Assembly (NCBI GenBank): GCA_014879445.1
Contig: JACSSC010000011.1
Span: 1-37,345, forward strand
From: Candidatus Competibacteraceae bacterium
GTDB taxonomy: Bacteria > Bacteroidota > Bacteroidia > CAIKAF01
Length of the DNA stretch: 37,345 nt
Reading direction: 5' to 3'
Numbering within the stretch: position 1 is the first letter of the stretch; each line of letters begins with the position of its first letter. This document shows positions 1,847 to 21,840 of this stretch, piece after piece. The notes below the pieces were generated by a model. It did no database searches. It was not told the origin of the DNA and worked only from the letters and a program-made list of their open reading frames with translations. A program made the position numbers and the translations under genes.

Positions 1847-2620
1847 ATGAAGTTTTTGATAAGTATAGCCACTCGACTGATACCTCGGCGATATTTGCAT
1901 AGGGTGAGTCATGCAGTGCTTCGCATTGTTGGATTATTTTATAGAGGGAATGTTTATGAGGATCCGATAACGGGCATTACTTACCGAAAGATGTTGCCGT
2001 ATGGGAGAATGCATTCAAGGAGTAATGCATTGGCACCTGATTCGATGTCGTTGGAGCGACATAGGTTGATATGGCTGTATTTGCGTGATAGAACTGATTT
2101 TTTTACCTCACATTATAAGGTATTGCATATAGCGCCGGAGTATTGTTTCATCAAGCGCTTTAGGAGAATGAGAAATCTGCATTATACGACAGGAGATTTG
2201 GAATCGCCTTGGGCGGATGTGAAGATGGACATTAATGCAATGCCCTTTGCCGATCGAACTTATGATGTAGTGATTTGCAATCATGTGTTGGAGCATATAC
2301 CTGATGATGTACACGCCATGCGTGAAATATACAGAGTAATGAAGCCGGGCGGTTGGGCGATACTTCAAGTGCCTATGCGCTATGATATGGATATAACAGA
2401 TGAAGATATCAGCATTACGGATCCGTCAGAGCGTGAACGACGATTTTTGCAGCGCGATCATTTTAGGTTGTATGGTCGCGACTATGCCGACCGGCTCAAA
2501 CAAGCAGGATTTGAGGTGGAAGAGAACAAGCTTGTTTGGGAATTGCCAGTTGAGTTGGTAAAAAGGTATGTATTGCCTGAAAATGAAGTATTGTATATAG
2601 CCCGAAGAAAAAAAGATTGA
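1847..2620 (+). CDS. Class I SAM-dependent methyltransferase (Methyltransf_11 type)
   Basis: A 257-residue protein with a basic N-terminal extension and a Rossmann methyltransferase core. In order come VLHIAPE (a diverged motif I), the acidic motif II region TGDLESP, DVVICNHVLEHI (motif IV) and YRVMKPGGWAILQVP (motifs V and VI). The C-terminal RDHFRLYGRDYADRLKQAGF is typical of methyltransferases near polysaccharide genes. The substrate is unknown. Its stop codon overlaps the TTG start of the next gene (TTGA at 2617-2620), so the two are translationally coupled. Methylation of a surface sugar or its carrier is therefore a reasonable but unproven guess. Confidence 0.88.
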   Translation: MKFLISIATRLIPRRYLHRVSHAVLRIVGLFYRGNVYEDPITGITYRKMLPYGRMHSRSNALAPDSMSLERHRLIWLYLRDRTDFFTSHYKVLHIAPEYCFIKRFRRMRNLHYTTGDLESPWADVKMDINAMPFADRTYDVVICNHVLEHIPDDVHAMREIYRVMKPGGWAILQVPMRYDMDITDEDISITDPSERERRFLQRDHFRLYGRDYADRLKQAGFEVEENKLVWELPVELVKRYVLPENEVLYIARRKKD

Positions 2621-4485
2621 AAGCAGTAATATTAGCCGGAGGAAAAGGAACGAGATTGGGAGATTTGACAAAAGAAATTCCCAAACCCATGCTGCCTGTT
2701 TGTGGAAGACCACTATTAGAGTATCACCTAACACTTTTGAAGCGATATAACATTACGGAAGTGTGGATTATGGTCAACTATTTGAAAGATGTTATCATTT
2801 CGCATTTTGGAAATGGCGAAGCTTGGGGCGTGCAAATACACTATTATGAAGAAGCAGAGCCGCTTGGCACGACAGGAGGAATTAAAGCAATTGAGCATGT
2901 ATTGCAAGAAGATTTTTTAGTGTTGTATGGAGATGTGATGGTAGAAATGGATTTGTCTCGACTAATAGATTTTCATCAACAACATAATGCTGATGCTACT
3001 TTGGTGTTGCATCCCAACGATCATCCGGCAGACAGTGATTTGGTGGAGCTCGATAAGGAGAAACGAATTATTCGATTTCATGCCAAACCCCATAACTCAG
3101 AATTGTATTACAGGAATTTGGTGAATGCAGGATTGTATGTGATGCGTCCTCAACTGATAAAGAGCATACCGGCAGGATGTGCAGCAGATTTTGGCAGAGA
3201 TATTTTTCCTTCCATCGTTGGCACACATTATTTAGCAGGATATAATACGACTGAATATTTGAAAGATATGGGAACACCTGAACGGTTGCATCGTGTAGAA
3301 AAAGATATCATGTCGGGTAGGGTAGAAAGAAGGAGTTATAGGCACACACAAAAGGCCATATTTTTAGATCGTGATGGCGTATTGAATGATGATACTGATT
3401 TTATTCGTCGTTTGGATGATTTGATTTTGTATCCAGATGTTCCAGAAGCCGTAAAGCGAATTAATGATAGTGATTATGCAGCCATTGTAATCACAAATCA
3501 ATCAGTTGTGGCTCGCAATCTCTGTACAGAGGATTATTTGAGACAGATACATAATAAACTTGAAACAGATCTTGGGAAGTCCCATGCCTGGTTGGATGAT
3601 ATTTATTATTGCCCTCATCATCCGCATAGAGGATATCCGGAAGAGAATACAGCATTAAAAATTGAATGTGAGTGTAGAAAACCCAAGCCCGGCATGTTGT
3701 TGCAGGCGGCAAAGGATTATTGTATAGATTTATCTGCATCATGGATGCTGGGTGATAATGAGCGTGATATTGAGGCAGGACGCGCTGCCGGTTGTTATAC
3801 GGTAGGTTTGGCAACCGGAAAAGGATTAAGGCAGACACAGATTTTCCCGGATTATTTCTTTTTCTCTCTTCGAGAAGCTATTGATTTTATACTTGACGAT
3901 CCTTTATATGATACCGCTGTAAGAATGTATAAATCATATCAGCAAGCAGATAAACGCCCTTATATTATAGCTATTGGCGGTAATACAAGAAGTGGAAAGA
4001 GTACACTTACAACCTACGCAAAATCGTATTTCAAAAAAAAGGGAATGAGTGTATTTTGTATTCGATTGGATGATTGGATATTGCCACCATCAGGTCGCAA
4101 ACATCCACACGATATTTATCAGGTATTTCAGTTGGAAAAGTTAAACCAGGATTTGGAAAAAATTCGAATTGGAGAGGAAGTTGTTTTGCCCGGATATGCG
4201 GCACATCCTATGCGTAAACCTATAGCTGTAAACTATGAATATAATTGTGAAGATGTGATTATTGTTGAAGGAATATCGGCTATGGAATTACCCTTTGTGC
4301 AATCACAAGCTCATTTGAAAATATATACATCCATAGATTTTACAACATTAAAAGAACGATTATATGCTTTGTATAAATGGAAGGGATTCCCAGATGAAGC
4401 CATAGATAGTAAGTGGAATGAGCGTCTTGAGCCGGAATATTATAGGATAGAAAAAGGTCGTCATGTAGCCGATTGGATTTTGTAA
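2617..4485 (+). CDS. Three-domain fusion: sugar nucleotidyltransferase, HAD (GmhB-like) phosphatase, P-loop kinase
   Basis: A 622-residue cytoplasmic protein made of three enzyme modules. Residues 1-235 are an NTP_transferase domain, with LAGGKGTRL at 6-14, the KP of IPKPML at 21-26, and YGD at 104-106. Residues 245-428 are a HAD-IIIA phosphatase with DRDGVLN (Asp251, Asp253), TNQS (293-296), a GmhB-type zinc site (Cys332, His334, Cys351, Cys353) and GDNERD (379-384). Residues 446-622 are a uridine-kinase-like P-loop kinase with Walker A GNTRSGKS (455-462) and RLDDW. The first two modules resemble HddC (heptose-1-phosphate guanylyltransferase) and GmhB (heptose-1,7-bisphosphate 7-phosphatase). 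The third could supply the missing 1-kinase step, and that is inference. The TTG start is forced, because the family motif begins there. Confidence 0.88.
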   Translation: MKAVILAGGKGTRLGDLTKEIPKPMLPVCGRPLLEYHLTLLKRYNITEVWIMVNYLKDVIISHFGNGEAWGVQIHYYEEAEPLGTTGGIKAIEHVLQEDFLVLYGDVMVEMDLSRLIDFHQQHNADATLVLHPNDHPADSDLVELDKEKRIIRFHAKPHNSELYYRNLVNAGLYVMRPQLIKSIPAGCAADFGRDIFPSIVGTHYLAGYNTTEYLKDMGTPERLHRVEKDIMSGRVERRSYRHTQKAIFLDRDGVLNDDTDFIRRLDDLILYPDVPEAVKRINDSDYAAIVITNQSVVARNLCTEDYLRQIHNKLETDLGKSHAWLDDIYYCPHHPHRGYPEENTALKIECECRKPKPGMLLQAAKDYCIDLSASWMLGDNERDIEAGRAAGCYTVGLATGKGLRQTQIFPDYFFFSLREAIDFILDDPLYDTAVRMYKSYQQADKRPYIIAIGGNTRSGKSTLTTYAKSYFKKKGMSVFCIRLDDWILPPSGRKHPHDIYQVFQLEKLNQDLEKIRIGEEVVLPGYAAHPMRKPIAVNYEYNCEDVIIVEGISAMELPFVQSQAHLKIYTSIDFTTLKERLYALYKWKGFPDEAIDSKWNERLEPEYYRIEKGRHVADWIL

Positions 4486-4499
4486 TACAGATTGAAGCG

Positions 4500-5438
4500 A
4501 TGAGCCAGTCATTATATTCTGATTATTCTTCATACATACGCAAGCTTTTTGGAGAGCGAGTACAAAAGATTTCGCTAAATACAGGTTATGGTTGTCCGAA
4601 CCGCGATGGAACAAGAGGTTATGGAGGTTGTACGTATTGCAATATTCATACATTTAGTCCTGATTATTGTAAGCCACAAAAGTCGGTGAGTCAGCAATTA
4701 TCTGAAGGAATTCAATTTTTTTCAGCTCGATATCAATCACAAAAATATTTGGCCTATTTTCAATCATATACAAATACATATGCGTCGTTTGATTTGCTTA
4801 AGCAAACCTATGAAGAGGCCTTAACTCATCCAGGCGTGGTAGGATTAGTTGTGGGAACAAGGCCCGATTGTATTTCGGATGAGATTGCTGCTATGTTCTC
4901 TGACTTAGCAACAAGATGTTATGTATCTGTAGAGTTGGGAGTGGAGAGTACGATTAATCGCACGTTGGAGTTGGTAAATCGATGTCATACTTTTGAAGAA
5001 ACACAGGATGCTTATGCCCTATTAAAAAACAGAGGTATGGATCTGGGTGCTCATATCATCATAGGTTTACCTGGAGAGAATGAAGAGGACATGTTGAGAC
5101 ATGCAGATACATTGTCGGCATTGCCGATTCAGACGCTTAAGATACATCAGTTGCAGATTGTAAAGCATACACGTATGGCAATGCAGTATGAGCAAGAACC
5201 GTCAATGTTTCGTTTGTTTGATTTGGAAGCATATATTGATTTTATGGCGCGGTTTACAGCGCGATTGCGTTCGGATATTGTAATTGAGCGTTTCAGTAGC
5301 GAGTCGCCAGATCGTTTATTAATTGCGCCTAAATGGAATGGAATCAAGAATTTTGAAATTTCACATCGTGTAAAGAAAAAAATGATGGAGAAAGGGTTAT
5401 ATCAGGGTTGTGATTTCAGGAATTCAAAAGAAGGATAA
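4500..5438 (+). CDS. Radical SAM protein of the TIGR01212 (YhcC-like) family
   Basis: A 312-residue protein. The iron-sulfur motif is Cys-x11-Cys-x2-Cys (CPNRDGTRGYGGCTYC), the extended spacing that marks the YhcC/TIGR01212 group. It is preceded by KISLNTGYG, the usual entry strand. Downstream are GTRPDCI, VELGVES and HIIIGLPGE, the conserved barrel strands. The family's reaction is not established. I chose the ATG at 4500, since the TTG at 4473 would overlap the upstream gene and add nine unrelated residues. Only 14 bp separate it from the fusion gene, so the two are probably cotranscribed. It ends 2 bp short of the convergent pdxH. Confidence 0.9.
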   Translation: MSQSLYSDYSSYIRKLFGERVQKISLNTGYGCPNRDGTRGYGGCTYCNIHTFSPDYCKPQKSVSQQLSEGIQFFSARYQSQKYLAYFQSYTNTYASFDLLKQTYEEALTHPGVVGLVVGTRPDCISDEIAAMFSDLATRCYVSVELGVESTINRTLELVNRCHTFEETQDAYALLKNRGMDLGAHIIIGLPGENEEDMLRHADTLSALPIQTLKIHQLQIVKHTRMAMQYEQEPSMFRLFDLEAYIDFMARFTARLRSDIVIERFSSESPDRLLIAPKWNGIKNFEISHRVKKKMMEKGLYQGCDFRNSKEG

Positions 5439-18632: not shown

Positions 18633-19583
18633 TTATTTTCGACGTATAACCGACTCTGAAGCGGCTACTATATTGGGCACGTCTAATCCATATTTGATAA
18701 GCAAATCAAGTGGTTTCCCGCTTTCTCCAAAGGTATCGTTTACTGCAATAAAATGCATGGGCGATGGTAGGGTTTGTGCTAAAAGCTGGGCTACACTGTC
18801 GCCCAAACCACCATTGCGTAGATGTTCTTCTGCTGTTACAACACATCCGGTCTTTGATACGGAGGCCAAAATGGCTTCTTCATCTAAAGGTTTTATTGTA
18901 TGAATATTAATAACCTCGGCTGAAATTCCTCGTTCTTCTAATATTGCAGCAGCTTCAATCGATTTCCATACTAAATGCCCGGTAGCAATGATAGTAACAT
19001 CTTTTCCCTCTATCATCTTTTTAGCTTTGCCTATGACAAACGGTTCATCAGGTTGGGTGAAAACCGGCCATGAAGGTCGCCCAAATCGCAAATAAACCGG
19101 CCCATGATGTGCTGCGACAGCCAGCGTGGCAGCTTTGGTCTCATTGTAATCACATGGCGAAATAACGGTCATGTTAGGCAACATCTTCATCATCCCCAAA
19201 TCTTCAATCATTTGGTGAGTGGCGCCATCTTCTCCTAATGTTAATCCTGCATGTGAGGCGCAAATTTTAACATTGGTGTTAGAATAGGCAATGGATTGCC
19301 GTATCTGGTCATAAACACGGCCTGTACTGAAATTTGCAAACGTGCCCGTAAATGGTATTTTCCCTCCAACGGCAAGTCCGGCTGCTACACCCATCATGTT
19401 AGCTTCAGCTATACCGACTTGAATAAATCTATCTGGAAATTCTTTTTCAAAATCATTCATCTTTAATGACCCTGTAAGATCGGCTGTGAGCGCAACAACA
19501 TTAGGATTTTTCTTTCCTAATTCAAGCAATCCGGCACCAAACCCTGATCGTGTGTCTTTCTCTTCGGTAAAGGTGTATTTCAT
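18633..19583 (-). CDS. Transketolase, C-terminal subunit (split enzyme)
   Basis: A 316-residue protein holding the pyrimidine-binding and C-terminal domains of a split transketolase. It begins with the helix YTFTEEKDTRSGFG, then VALTADLTGS, QVGIAEANMMGVAAGLA (the Glu that activates thiamine diphosphate), HAGLTLGEDGATHQ, and the C-terminal domain with IIATGHL and VTAEEHLRNGGLG. It works with the N-terminal subunit at 20972-21817, from which it is separated by the VWA gene. The pair would interconvert pentose and hexose phosphates. 1-deoxyxylulose-5-phosphate synthase is excluded by the split form and motif set. Confidence 0.93.
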   Translation of the reverse strand: MKYTFTEEKDTRSGFGAGLLELGKKNPNVVALTADLTGSLKMNDFEKEFPDRFIQVGIAEANMMGVAAGLAVGGKIPFTGTFANFSTGRVYDQIRQSIAYSNTNVKICASHAGLTLGEDGATHQMIEDLGMMKMLPNMTVISPCDYNETKAATLAVAAHHGPVYLRFGRPSWPVFTQPDEPFVIGKAKKMIEGKDVTIIATGHLVWKSIEAAAILEERGISAEVINIHTIKPLDEEAILASVSKTGCVVTAEEHLRNGGLGDSVAQLLAQTLPSPMHFIAVNDTFGESGKPLDLLIKYGLDVPNIVAASESVIRRK

Positions 19584-19592
19584 ATTCTAAGT

Positions 19593-20963
19593 TTATTGCA
19601 TAAGGTTTACGATAACTGATTCGCCAGGCCTAACCGTGAAGTTCCTTTCTTTAGTTAAAATGGTTTCTTTGGCTAAGCGATATCTAAAAACAACTTTATA
19701 TTGACCGGGTTGTAAAATCAACGACTGATTGTATGCGTTTTCGTTCAAATTTGTTACAAATTCTATTTCATTCTTGTGTATTTGGAAGATGGATCCAAAT
19801 CCTACATTACCATATTGAAAATTCACGATTCCGGCTTCTTCTATTTCAATATGGGTTATTGTACTTTGACTAATTTTTACATTCTTTTGATAAATGCGGG
19901 GTAGTGTAAGTATCTCTAAATCATATTGGCCTGTAAGATATTTAACAGAAGCGCCAATATCTTGAACATGCAACGTGTTGCTATTACCTGCTTTGCGCAC
20001 TATACATTTAACAGTGCCATATTGATTGCGACCGTTAATTTTTACTGACAGACTTCCTTGTGGCGCATCAACAGCTATTACATTATGAATGCCTTGTGTA
20101 ATCGTAATATCATCTTTTTCTACCGGGGGTATTGTATGAACTTTTAATCTGTATGTTATAAAATTATCAAGAAAAAGAGTGTCTGGATTTCCTGCATGAT
20201 TTAACGTGTGCACAAAATGATATATCATCCTTCCTGTACGACTTTCATAAAGTGTAAATGGAACATTCGTCTCTGTTGGCTTTTTATATGCATCTAATAA
20301 ATTGACTTGTGCTGTAGTAGGGTAGAGGGCTTGCGTAATAACGATTTTCAATACATCGCGGAATGATTCTTCTGTATTTGCATCGTAGTATGATCCTACG
20401 CATTTAAGTGATGTTTTAATTTCATCACCCAACCCTATGCCTATGATAAAAGGTTTTAAGATAATTCCGTTTTTTTGTAATGCAGCTGAAACGGCACATG
20501 GGTCTCCTCCACATTCTTCTTTCCCGTCAGTAATGAGAATAATGATGTTTCGGGTGTTACTACCTCTGGGAAAATCATTGGCTGTGGCTTCCAGCGATAA
20601 TGCTATAGGTGTGGTACCTCGTGGCTGAATGGTAGTTAATAGGTTTTTGATTCTGTCATGGTTATTCTTGGCAAAAGGTATTTCCAACTTTGTATCATCG
20701 CAATCTTGTGGTGGATATTGTTTTTGATGTCCGAATATTCGTAAGGCCAAATCTACATGCGATTCTTTTTTTAAACTATCTACTAATTCGTTTAGCAATC
20801 GAACGGCAATTTGCATTTTAGTAGCCGATTGCCATCGCCCTAGCATGCTTTGCGATGCATCGAAAACAAAAAGAATACGTACGTTTTGTTTTTGCGAATA
20901 CAATTCACTCTTCCCAATTAAAATCAGGATTAGGAATGTAAGTATGAAAAAATTATTTTTCAA
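19593..20963 (-). CDS. Exported VWA-domain protein within the transketolase operon
   Basis: A 456-residue protein with an N-terminal hydrophobic signal (residues 5-17) ending near LYSQ. A von Willebrand A domain occupies residues 28-215 with a complete MIDAS: DASQS (35-39), Thr117/118 and Asp146 in ITDGKE. Cys88, Cys151 and Cys156 could form disulfides, consistent with export. The remainder, about residues 220-456, is beta-rich and looks like two or three carboxypeptidase-regulatory or Ig-like modules. The function is unknown. Gaps to the transketolase halves are 8 and 9 bp, so it is part of one transcript despite having no obvious metabolic link. Confidence 0.85.
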   Translation of the reverse strand: MKNNFFILTFLILILIGKSELYSQKQNVRILFVFDASQSMLGRWQSATKMQIAVRLLNELVDSLKKESHVDLALRIFGHQKQYPPQDCDDTKLEIPFAKNNHDRIKNLLTTIQPRGTTPIALSLEATANDFPRGSNTRNIIILITDGKEECGGDPCAVSAALQKNGIILKPFIIGIGLGDEIKTSLKCVGSYYDANTEESFRDVLKIVITQALYPTTAQVNLLDAYKKPTETNVPFTLYESRTGRMIYHFVHTLNHAGNPDTLFLDNFITYRLKVHTIPPVEKDDITITQGIHNVIAVDAPQGSLSVKINGRNQYGTVKCIVRKAGNSNTLHVQDIGASVKYLTGQYDLEILTLPRIYQKNVKISQSTITHIEIEEAGIVNFQYGNVGFGSIFQIHKNEIEFVTNLNENAYNQSLILQPGQYKVVFRYRLAKETILTKERNFTVRPGESVIVNLMQ

Positions 20964-20971
20964 AGTTTATA

Positions 20972-21817
20972 TCAATAATCACCAAGGGTTTGGGGCAGCT
21001 GGTTTAATGCGGATTCTAACTGAGAATCGTTAGGGGCTATCCCATGCCATTTGTGTGTACCCACCATGAAATCTACACCAAAACCCATTTCTGTTTTCAT
21101 GAGTATAACGACAGGTTTTTCTTTTCCTGTATGCTCGATAGCTAATTTAAGTGTTTTTATCGTGTCGTTGATGTCATTTCCTTGCATATGTAAAACATCC
21201 CATCCAAATGATGCCCATTTAGCTTGTATATCTCCCAGCGATAATACTTTTTCTGTGCTGCCATCTATTTGTTGACCATTCAAATCAATAGTGGCTATTA
21301 GGTTATCTATTTTTCGATGTGCAGCAAACATGGCTGCCTCCCATACCTGGCCTTCCTGTATTTCACCATCTCCCATCAACACAAAAACTTTTTTATTGTC
21401 GTTGTTGAGTTTTTTTGAAATGGCTGCTCCACAGGCCACTGATAAACCCTGACCCAAAGATCCAGATGCAATTCTTATGCCGGGTAGATGCTCTGCTGTA
21501 GCAGGATGCCCCTGTAATCGTGAATTGAGCTTACGAAATGTCTCTAATTCTGATATCTCAAAATATCCTTTTCTCGCTAATACACTATACCAAAGTGGCG
21601 ATATGTGCCCGTTAGAAAGGAAAAACATGTCTTCACCTTTTCCATCTTTGGAAAATTGCTCAGGAATGGCTTGAAGAATTTCAAAATAGAGAGCAACCAT
21701 GTACTCCGTGCAGCCCAATGACCCTCCTGGATGCCCTGATTGAACCGCATGCACCATGCGTAAAATATCTCTGCGTACTTGTGAGCAAATGTCTGTTAGT
21801 GGATGCTTTGATGTCAT
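20972..21817 (-). CDS. Transketolase, N-terminal subunit (split enzyme)
   Basis: A 281-residue thiamine-diphosphate-binding half of transketolase. HAVQSGHPGGSLGCTEY, ISPLWYSVLARKGY, GSLGQGLSVACG and the ThDP motif GDGEIQEGQVWEA ... IATIDLNGQQIDG are all intact. GVDFMVGTHKWHG closes the domain. The ATG at 21817 is preferred: the TTG at 21835 overlaps the -7 box, and the family begins near MTSKHPL. It is the first gene of the operon VWA, transketolase C half, CoA-transferase. Substrates are expected to be xylulose-5-P with ribose-5-P or erythrose-4-P. Confidence 0.93.
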   Translation of the reverse strand: MTSKHPLTDICSQVRRDILRMVHAVQSGHPGGSLGCTEYMVALYFEILQAIPEQFSKDGKGEDMFFLSNGHISPLWYSVLARKGYFEISELETFRKLNSRLQGHPATAEHLPGIRIASGSLGQGLSVACGAAISKKLNNDNKKVFVLMGDGEIQEGQVWEAAMFAAHRKIDNLIATIDLNGQQIDGSTEKVLSLGDIQAKWASFGWDVLHMQGNDINDTIKTLKLAIEHTGKEKPVVILMKTEMGFGVDFMVGTHKWHGIAPNDSQLESALNQLPQTLGDY

Positions 21818-21832
21818 AGCTAAAAATCTGCC

Positions 21833-21840
21833 CAAAAATA
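21833..21840 (-). promoter_or_regulatory. -7 box of the transketolase operon
   Basis: The minus strand reads TATTTTTG, fitting TAnnTTTG. Transcription would begin near 21826, nine bases before the ATG at 21817, which argues against the upstream TTG start. A -33 element at normal spacing is not evident. Confidence 0.4.

Follow-up and report, generated by a model that had tools for sequence, protein, structure and literature searches.

The known route to GDP-heptose uses four enzymes in the order GmhA, HddA, GmhB and HddC (reviewed in PMC10680097). HddC is a nucleotidyltransferase (NTase), exemplified by the Yersinia protein of structure 5xhw and by C. jejuni Cj1423. GmhB is a phosphatase of the HAD-IIIA type, exemplified by the E. 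coli enzyme (structures 2gmw and 3l8e), WcbN and Cj1152, the single GmhB that serves both heptose pathways in C. jejuni (PMC10680097). The kinase of the route, HddA or WcbL, has the GHMP fold.

Proteins that join an NTase to a HAD phosphatase are common in Firmicutes, Spirochaetes and Prevotella, where they are named 'HAD-IIIA family hydrolase' and are encoded beside hddA and gmhA. The protein described here has these two domains in the same order, with 40-50% identity, but it carries in addition a kinase domain that its two-domain relatives lack. The first two domains are of a known kind. The third is undescribed in such an architecture in the open-access literature: a search of that literature, with subscription journals outside its scope, found no description of the three-domain fusion.

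The protein is encoded in the window, the whole stretch of 37,345 nucleotides that was analysed. Its gene lies at 2617..4485 on the forward strand including the stop codon (coding 2617-4482) and is a single open reading frame of 622 amino acids without interruption. Pfam, NCBIfam, a sequence search of the PDB, and AlphaFold with Foldseek concur on an NTase, a zinc-binding HAD phosphatase and a P-loop kinase, which confirms the order given by an earlier sequence-only reading. The whole protein is modelled as a single compact unit (pTM 0.91). Orthologues are found in all 15 of the other genomes searched from the same family; 14 are fused, and in the remaining genome, whose assembly is 77% complete, the gene is divided between two contigs. 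The active-site residues of all three domains are invariant or nearly so in these 15 orthologues. The window protein thus comprises three domains with apparently intact active sites. An artefact of assembly or frameshift was considered and is ruled out, because the fusion is intact in 14 of the 15 other same-family genomes and in unrelated taxa.

The gene starts with TTG, which overlaps the TGA of the upstream gene as TTGA. This upstream gene (1847..2620, forward strand) encodes a class I SAM methyltransferase. It also lies directly upstream of the fusion in same-family genomes G006 and G012 and at locus L033, and the order is shared by L033, L197 and L200. Because the arrangement recurs in other same-family genomes, the two genes are probably co-transcribed as operon partners, and the methyltransferase may act on a heptose-containing product. 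Downstream, an open reading frame for a TIGR01212 radical SAM protein (MnmL/YtqA; 4473-5438, forward strand) overlaps the end of the fusion by 13 bases. The overlap is likely no more than tight packing of genes, or else this frame begins at a later codon. Further along the window, two transketolase-like reading frames on the reverse strand, recognized by eye, correspond to a C-terminal half (18633-19583) and an N-terminal half (20972-21835), with an unrelated secreted-type VWA-like reading frame (19593-20963) between them.

The NTase domain spans residues 1-235 (2617..3321, forward strand). It matches PF00483 at 2.7e-40 (138.9 bits) and shows the fold of sugar-1-phosphate nucleotidyltransferases, with a GGxGxR motif (here GGKGTR), a PK motif and the metal-binding Asp (D106), all invariant in the 15 orthologues. 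Fold, motifs and linkage to hddA and gmhA are shared with HddC. The domain matches the Yersinia HddC structure 5xhw at 6.5e-20, and its Foldseek matches are MurU and HddC. It differs from HddC in being fused to a HAD domain and a kinase, and in scoring under the curated cut-off (104.2 bits against 300 for NF049965). Its sequence is no further from GDP-mannose pyrophosphorylase and MurU than from HddC: among NCBIfam models, mannose-1-phosphate guanylyltransferase scores 181.6 bits and MurU 132.7.

The HAD domain follows at residues 241-430 (3337..3906, forward strand). Its best NCBIfam match is GmhB (7.3e-48; 162.5 bits for PRK08942), and its nearest solved structure is E. coli GmhB 3l8e (1.5e-30). 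With GmhB it shares the DxD pair (D251 and D253), D380 and the zinc ligands C332, H334, C351 and C353; the zinc ligands and the DxD pair are invariant in the 15 family members, so that the zinc site is intact, as first suggested from the sequence. Unlike GmhB, the domain sits between an NTase and a kinase and falls under the TIGR00213 cut-off (126.3 bits against 149.6), although one same-family orthologue reaches 152.7. The broader cut-offs of TIGR01656 (122.6 bits) and TIGR01662 are passed. In profile searches the domain is the sole clear GmhB match in its own genome. The same holds in nearly all same-family genomes, two of which have an extra weak match of about 50 bits. Since no other clear GmhB is present, the fused domain probably serves the ADP-heptose branch as well.

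The C-terminal domain (residues 447-622; 3955..4482, forward strand) is a kinase of the PRK/URK superfamily, with the P-loop, the catalytic Asp, the EG motif and the fold all present. Its motifs are a Walker A sequence GGNTRSGKS, D485, R494, Y527, E551-G552, WKG at 588-590, R603 and E607. Across relatives the Walker A motif, the catalytic Asp (485), a basic residue of the lid and Glu-Gly (551-552) are kept, with Asp-Gly replacing Glu-Gly in some. The window protein only just passes the PF00485 model (22.5 bits, with the cut-off at 22), but this model is matched by 12 of the 15 family members, the best at 1.2e-14. Kinase profiles match uridine kinases and UCK2 in the PDB at 1e-13 to 1e-17, and the AF2 model (pLDDT 92) matches UCK2 (Foldseek 1.3e-10) and PRK. 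The fold is therefore unrelated to the GHMP fold of HddA and WcbL, as the sequence-only reading had it. The dN/dS ratio of the kinase is 0.07-0.16 in four pairs of relatives, indicating purifying selection. Together with the invariant catalytic residues, this rules out a vestigial domain.

The nearest folds to this domain are uridine kinases, and no other PF00485 protein is found in genomes G000 and G012. It could therefore be the organism's nucleoside kinase, for uridine or guanosine, fused by chance or for nucleoside recycling. In UCK2, ribose and uridine specificity are set by Asp84 and His117 (PMC9163393). Read by hand from profile alignments, these residues have no conserved counterpart in the kinase family: the positions vary, and no His occurs at the aligned site. 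Against the uridine kinase model NF004018 the domain scores 41 bits where 180 are required; a true Udk reaches 270 in the same search. Fusion to heptose enzymes also recurs across phyla. A nucleoside kinase is thus improbable, in agreement with the first reading of the sequence. The domain shares its fold, Walker A motif, catalytic Asp, Glu-Gly and lid Arg or Lys with UCK, PRK and PRK07667-type kinases (PF00485), but it is far under their family cut-offs and has its own lid motif, WKG...R...E. In the genomes searched it is seen solely as a C-terminal fusion, unlike those kinases. One scan of genome contigs with the kinase alone gave no match; the alignment is too divergent for a pattern search. 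A Rosetta-stone test found no separate kinase homologue in two-domain clusters at 80 loci, and two weaker stand-alone matches in a sample of 296 Bacteroidota genomes are uridine kinases or close to them.

The window's own genome encodes the other heptose enzymes elsewhere. HddA is found at C50:6179-7156 (8.7e-154) and a second GmhA-like isomerase at C28:16774-17358, so that the fusion and these two genes each lie on different contigs. HldA (C22:10577-11503) stands beside a classical GmhA (C22:11545-12066), and HldC is at C13:3389-3808. Gene absences in this genome were judged by profile searches. The HddA-like kinase scores 155 bits against an equivalog cut-off of 600. Its catalytic residues are intact: the residues mutated in WcbL (R13, D22, S118-120, Q162 and D163; PMC4691232) are present at the corresponding positions.

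The same association is found in other genomes. HddA is present in 13 of 16 same-family genomes; profile searches found no match in G002, in G004 or in G010, which is 77% complete. Among 77 clustered NTase-HAD loci, a GHMP kinase with HddA as its best family is near 56, and a SIS isomerase with GmhA as its best family is near 55. At the kinase-bearing loci of other genomes each is found in cis in 9 of 11 cases; at kinase-less loci the GHMP kinase is near 47 of 66 and the isomerase near 46 of 66. HddA adjoins the fusion in Bacteroidales, Polynucleobacter, Methylovirgula and Rhizobium, with GmhA also next to it at such loci, and the Rhizobium and Methylovirgula clusters are on plasmids. The N-terminal motif type of HddA does not separate kinase-bearing from kinase-less loci.

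Two genomes are informative about the kinase. In Nitrospirillum amazonense (L107, 7941-9752) the NTase no longer has its catalytic residues, GGxGxR and the PK lysine among them, while those of the HAD and kinase domains are complete. This genome gives no HddA match and no other strong GmhB match, but it encodes a full-length HldE-sized protein with the second domain of HldE. An hldE-like gene lies about 13 kb from the three-domain homologue. Genome G004 lacks both HddA and the second GmhA-like gene; of the otherwise invariant residues it has lost 14 of 51 in the NTase and 10 of 59 in the HAD domain, but 1 of 16 in the kinase. Both cases point to a kinase linked with the phosphatase, or with a shared pool of heptose phosphates, rather than with GDP-heptose formation. 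Each case is a single genome, so this link is suggestive only.

These observations bear on the original proposal that one polypeptide runs three consecutive steps of GDP-heptose synthesis. Two of the steps stand, those of the HddC-like and GmhB-like domains. The third, in which the P-loop kinase would phosphorylate heptose-7-phosphate at C1 as a non-orthologous replacement of HddA, does not. The PRK/URK fold does include PRK, which acts on a sugar phosphate; the kinase is fused to the two enzymes that would follow it, and G002 and G004 carry the fusion without HddA. However, fusion genomes had been expected to lack hddA and hldE while keeping gmhA, and the window's genome combines the fusion with canonical hddA, hldA, gmhA and hldC. 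In G004 the absence of HddA goes with an eroded NTase, and Nitrospirillum has retained the kinase although its HddC function is gone. The replacement, highly improbable on this evidence, was rejected because HddA is present in the genome and usually adjacent to the fusion.

Because every component scores below curated equivalog cut-offs, the identity of sugar and nucleotide depends on genomic context, from which we infer specificity of the NTase domain for GTP and heptose-1-phosphate. Isomerase, GHMP kinase, HAD and NTase could instead act on another ketose phosphate and make a different activated sugar, as the low scores and the greater closeness of the NTase to the mannose-1-phosphate guanylyltransferase and MurU models would allow. 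The best matches of the other three components are nevertheless all heptose enzymes (SIS to GmhA, GHMP to HddA, HAD to GmhB), and genes recognized by eye as GT9 heptosyltransferase-like are nearby in G004 and G006. A different sugar is therefore rather unlikely. In G004 the GT9-like gene follows the fusion nearby (L015, contig C69).

The three-domain fusion is also found in Bacteroidales, Cryomorphaceae, Polynucleobacter and Methylocystis, and on plasmids of Rhizobium and Methylovirgula; in Methylocystis the kinase domain looks damaged. The kinase domain occurs on 55 Rhizobium plasmid records. Two of the Rhizobium plasmid loci (L204, L205) show a cluster of SIS isomerase, GT2, membrane protein, SDR epimerase, three-domain protein and GHMP kinase. 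The fusion is sporadic: of 296 evenly sampled Bacteroidota genomes, the window's own is the sole positive. Two-domain NTase-HAD proteins, 42-47% identical, also occur in three unannotated records from human faeces labelled 'Bacteriophage sp.' (H26-H28; MT835828, MT836753, MT839678), which may in fact be capsule DNA of bacteria misassigned to phages.

In a quick, unrooted tree of the NTase-HAD region the kinase-bearing proteins cluster, and six changes are required. The pattern is most easily read as an old fusion followed by several losses of the kinase, with the losses taken from a tree that cannot be rooted. On this reading the kinase would have been lost in Flavobacteriales and alphaproteobacteria that retain NTase-HAD and HddA. 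Lineages without the kinase mostly retain HddA; therefore, the pathway runs without it.

The protein is probably a fused HddC-GmhB that catalyses the final two reactions on the way to GDP-heptose, with an accessory kinase rather than a substitute for HddA. Sequence and structure show what the domains are, that their active sites are intact, and the linkage and co-occurrence of the genes; enzyme activities and GDP specificity are deduced from these. As in the two-domain relatives, GmhA in trans would isomerise sedoheptulose-7-phosphate, and the GHMP kinase HddA, also in trans, would phosphorylate C1. The HAD domain would then remove the 7-phosphate of D-glycero-D-manno-heptose-1,7-bisphosphate, a step that it would also supply to the ADP-heptose branch, and the N-terminal NTase would convert heptose-1-phosphate into GDP-heptose. 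The C-terminal kinase, predicted to be catalytically competent, would act on a heptose or heptulose that feeds the shared pool.

Kinases of the PRK/URK superfamily usually phosphorylate primary hydroxyls. The simplest reaction would be transfer of phosphate to the primary hydroxyl O7 of free D-glycero-D-manno-heptose or sedoheptulose, a salvage or entry step feeding GmhA, HddA or HldA and running opposite to the GmhB reaction at that hydroxyl. Two observations fit such a role: the kinase has stayed with the HAD domain in the genome that has a dead NTase and an HldE, and other lineages dispense with it. But no linked transporter or source of free sugar is seen, and sedoheptulose-7-phosphate is normally supplied by the pentose phosphate pathway. 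This substrate is a guess, and a somewhat doubtful one.

The main alternative to salvage at O7 is that heptose, heptose-1-phosphate or GDP-heptose receives an additional phosphate from the kinase, giving a phosphorylated donor or a regulatory metabolite, possibly through a kinase/phosphatase switch in one polypeptide. Purifying selection on the kinase fits this, as does the joint retention of kinase and phosphatase even where NTase function has been lost. However, none of the linked genes hints at a new product, and this reading, a pure inference, is unlikely.

The C-terminal domain may represent an undescribed class of PRK/URK-fold heptose or heptulose (phosphate) kinases, tied to GmhB rather than to nucleotide-sugar formation. 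The kinase is retained across a range that extends from Flavobacteriales to plasmids of rhizobia, and it goes unnoticed behind the unspecific label 'HAD-IIIA family hydrolase'. Nitrospirillum, with its dead NTase and its intact phosphatase and kinase, is in effect a natural experiment; the genes of Rhizobium belong to species that are tractable in the laboratory. If the assignment is correct, this kinase class would give bacterial heptose metabolism an additional step, for salvage, entry or regulation, and heptose activation would have an extra kinase step that is absent from the published pathway schemes examined.
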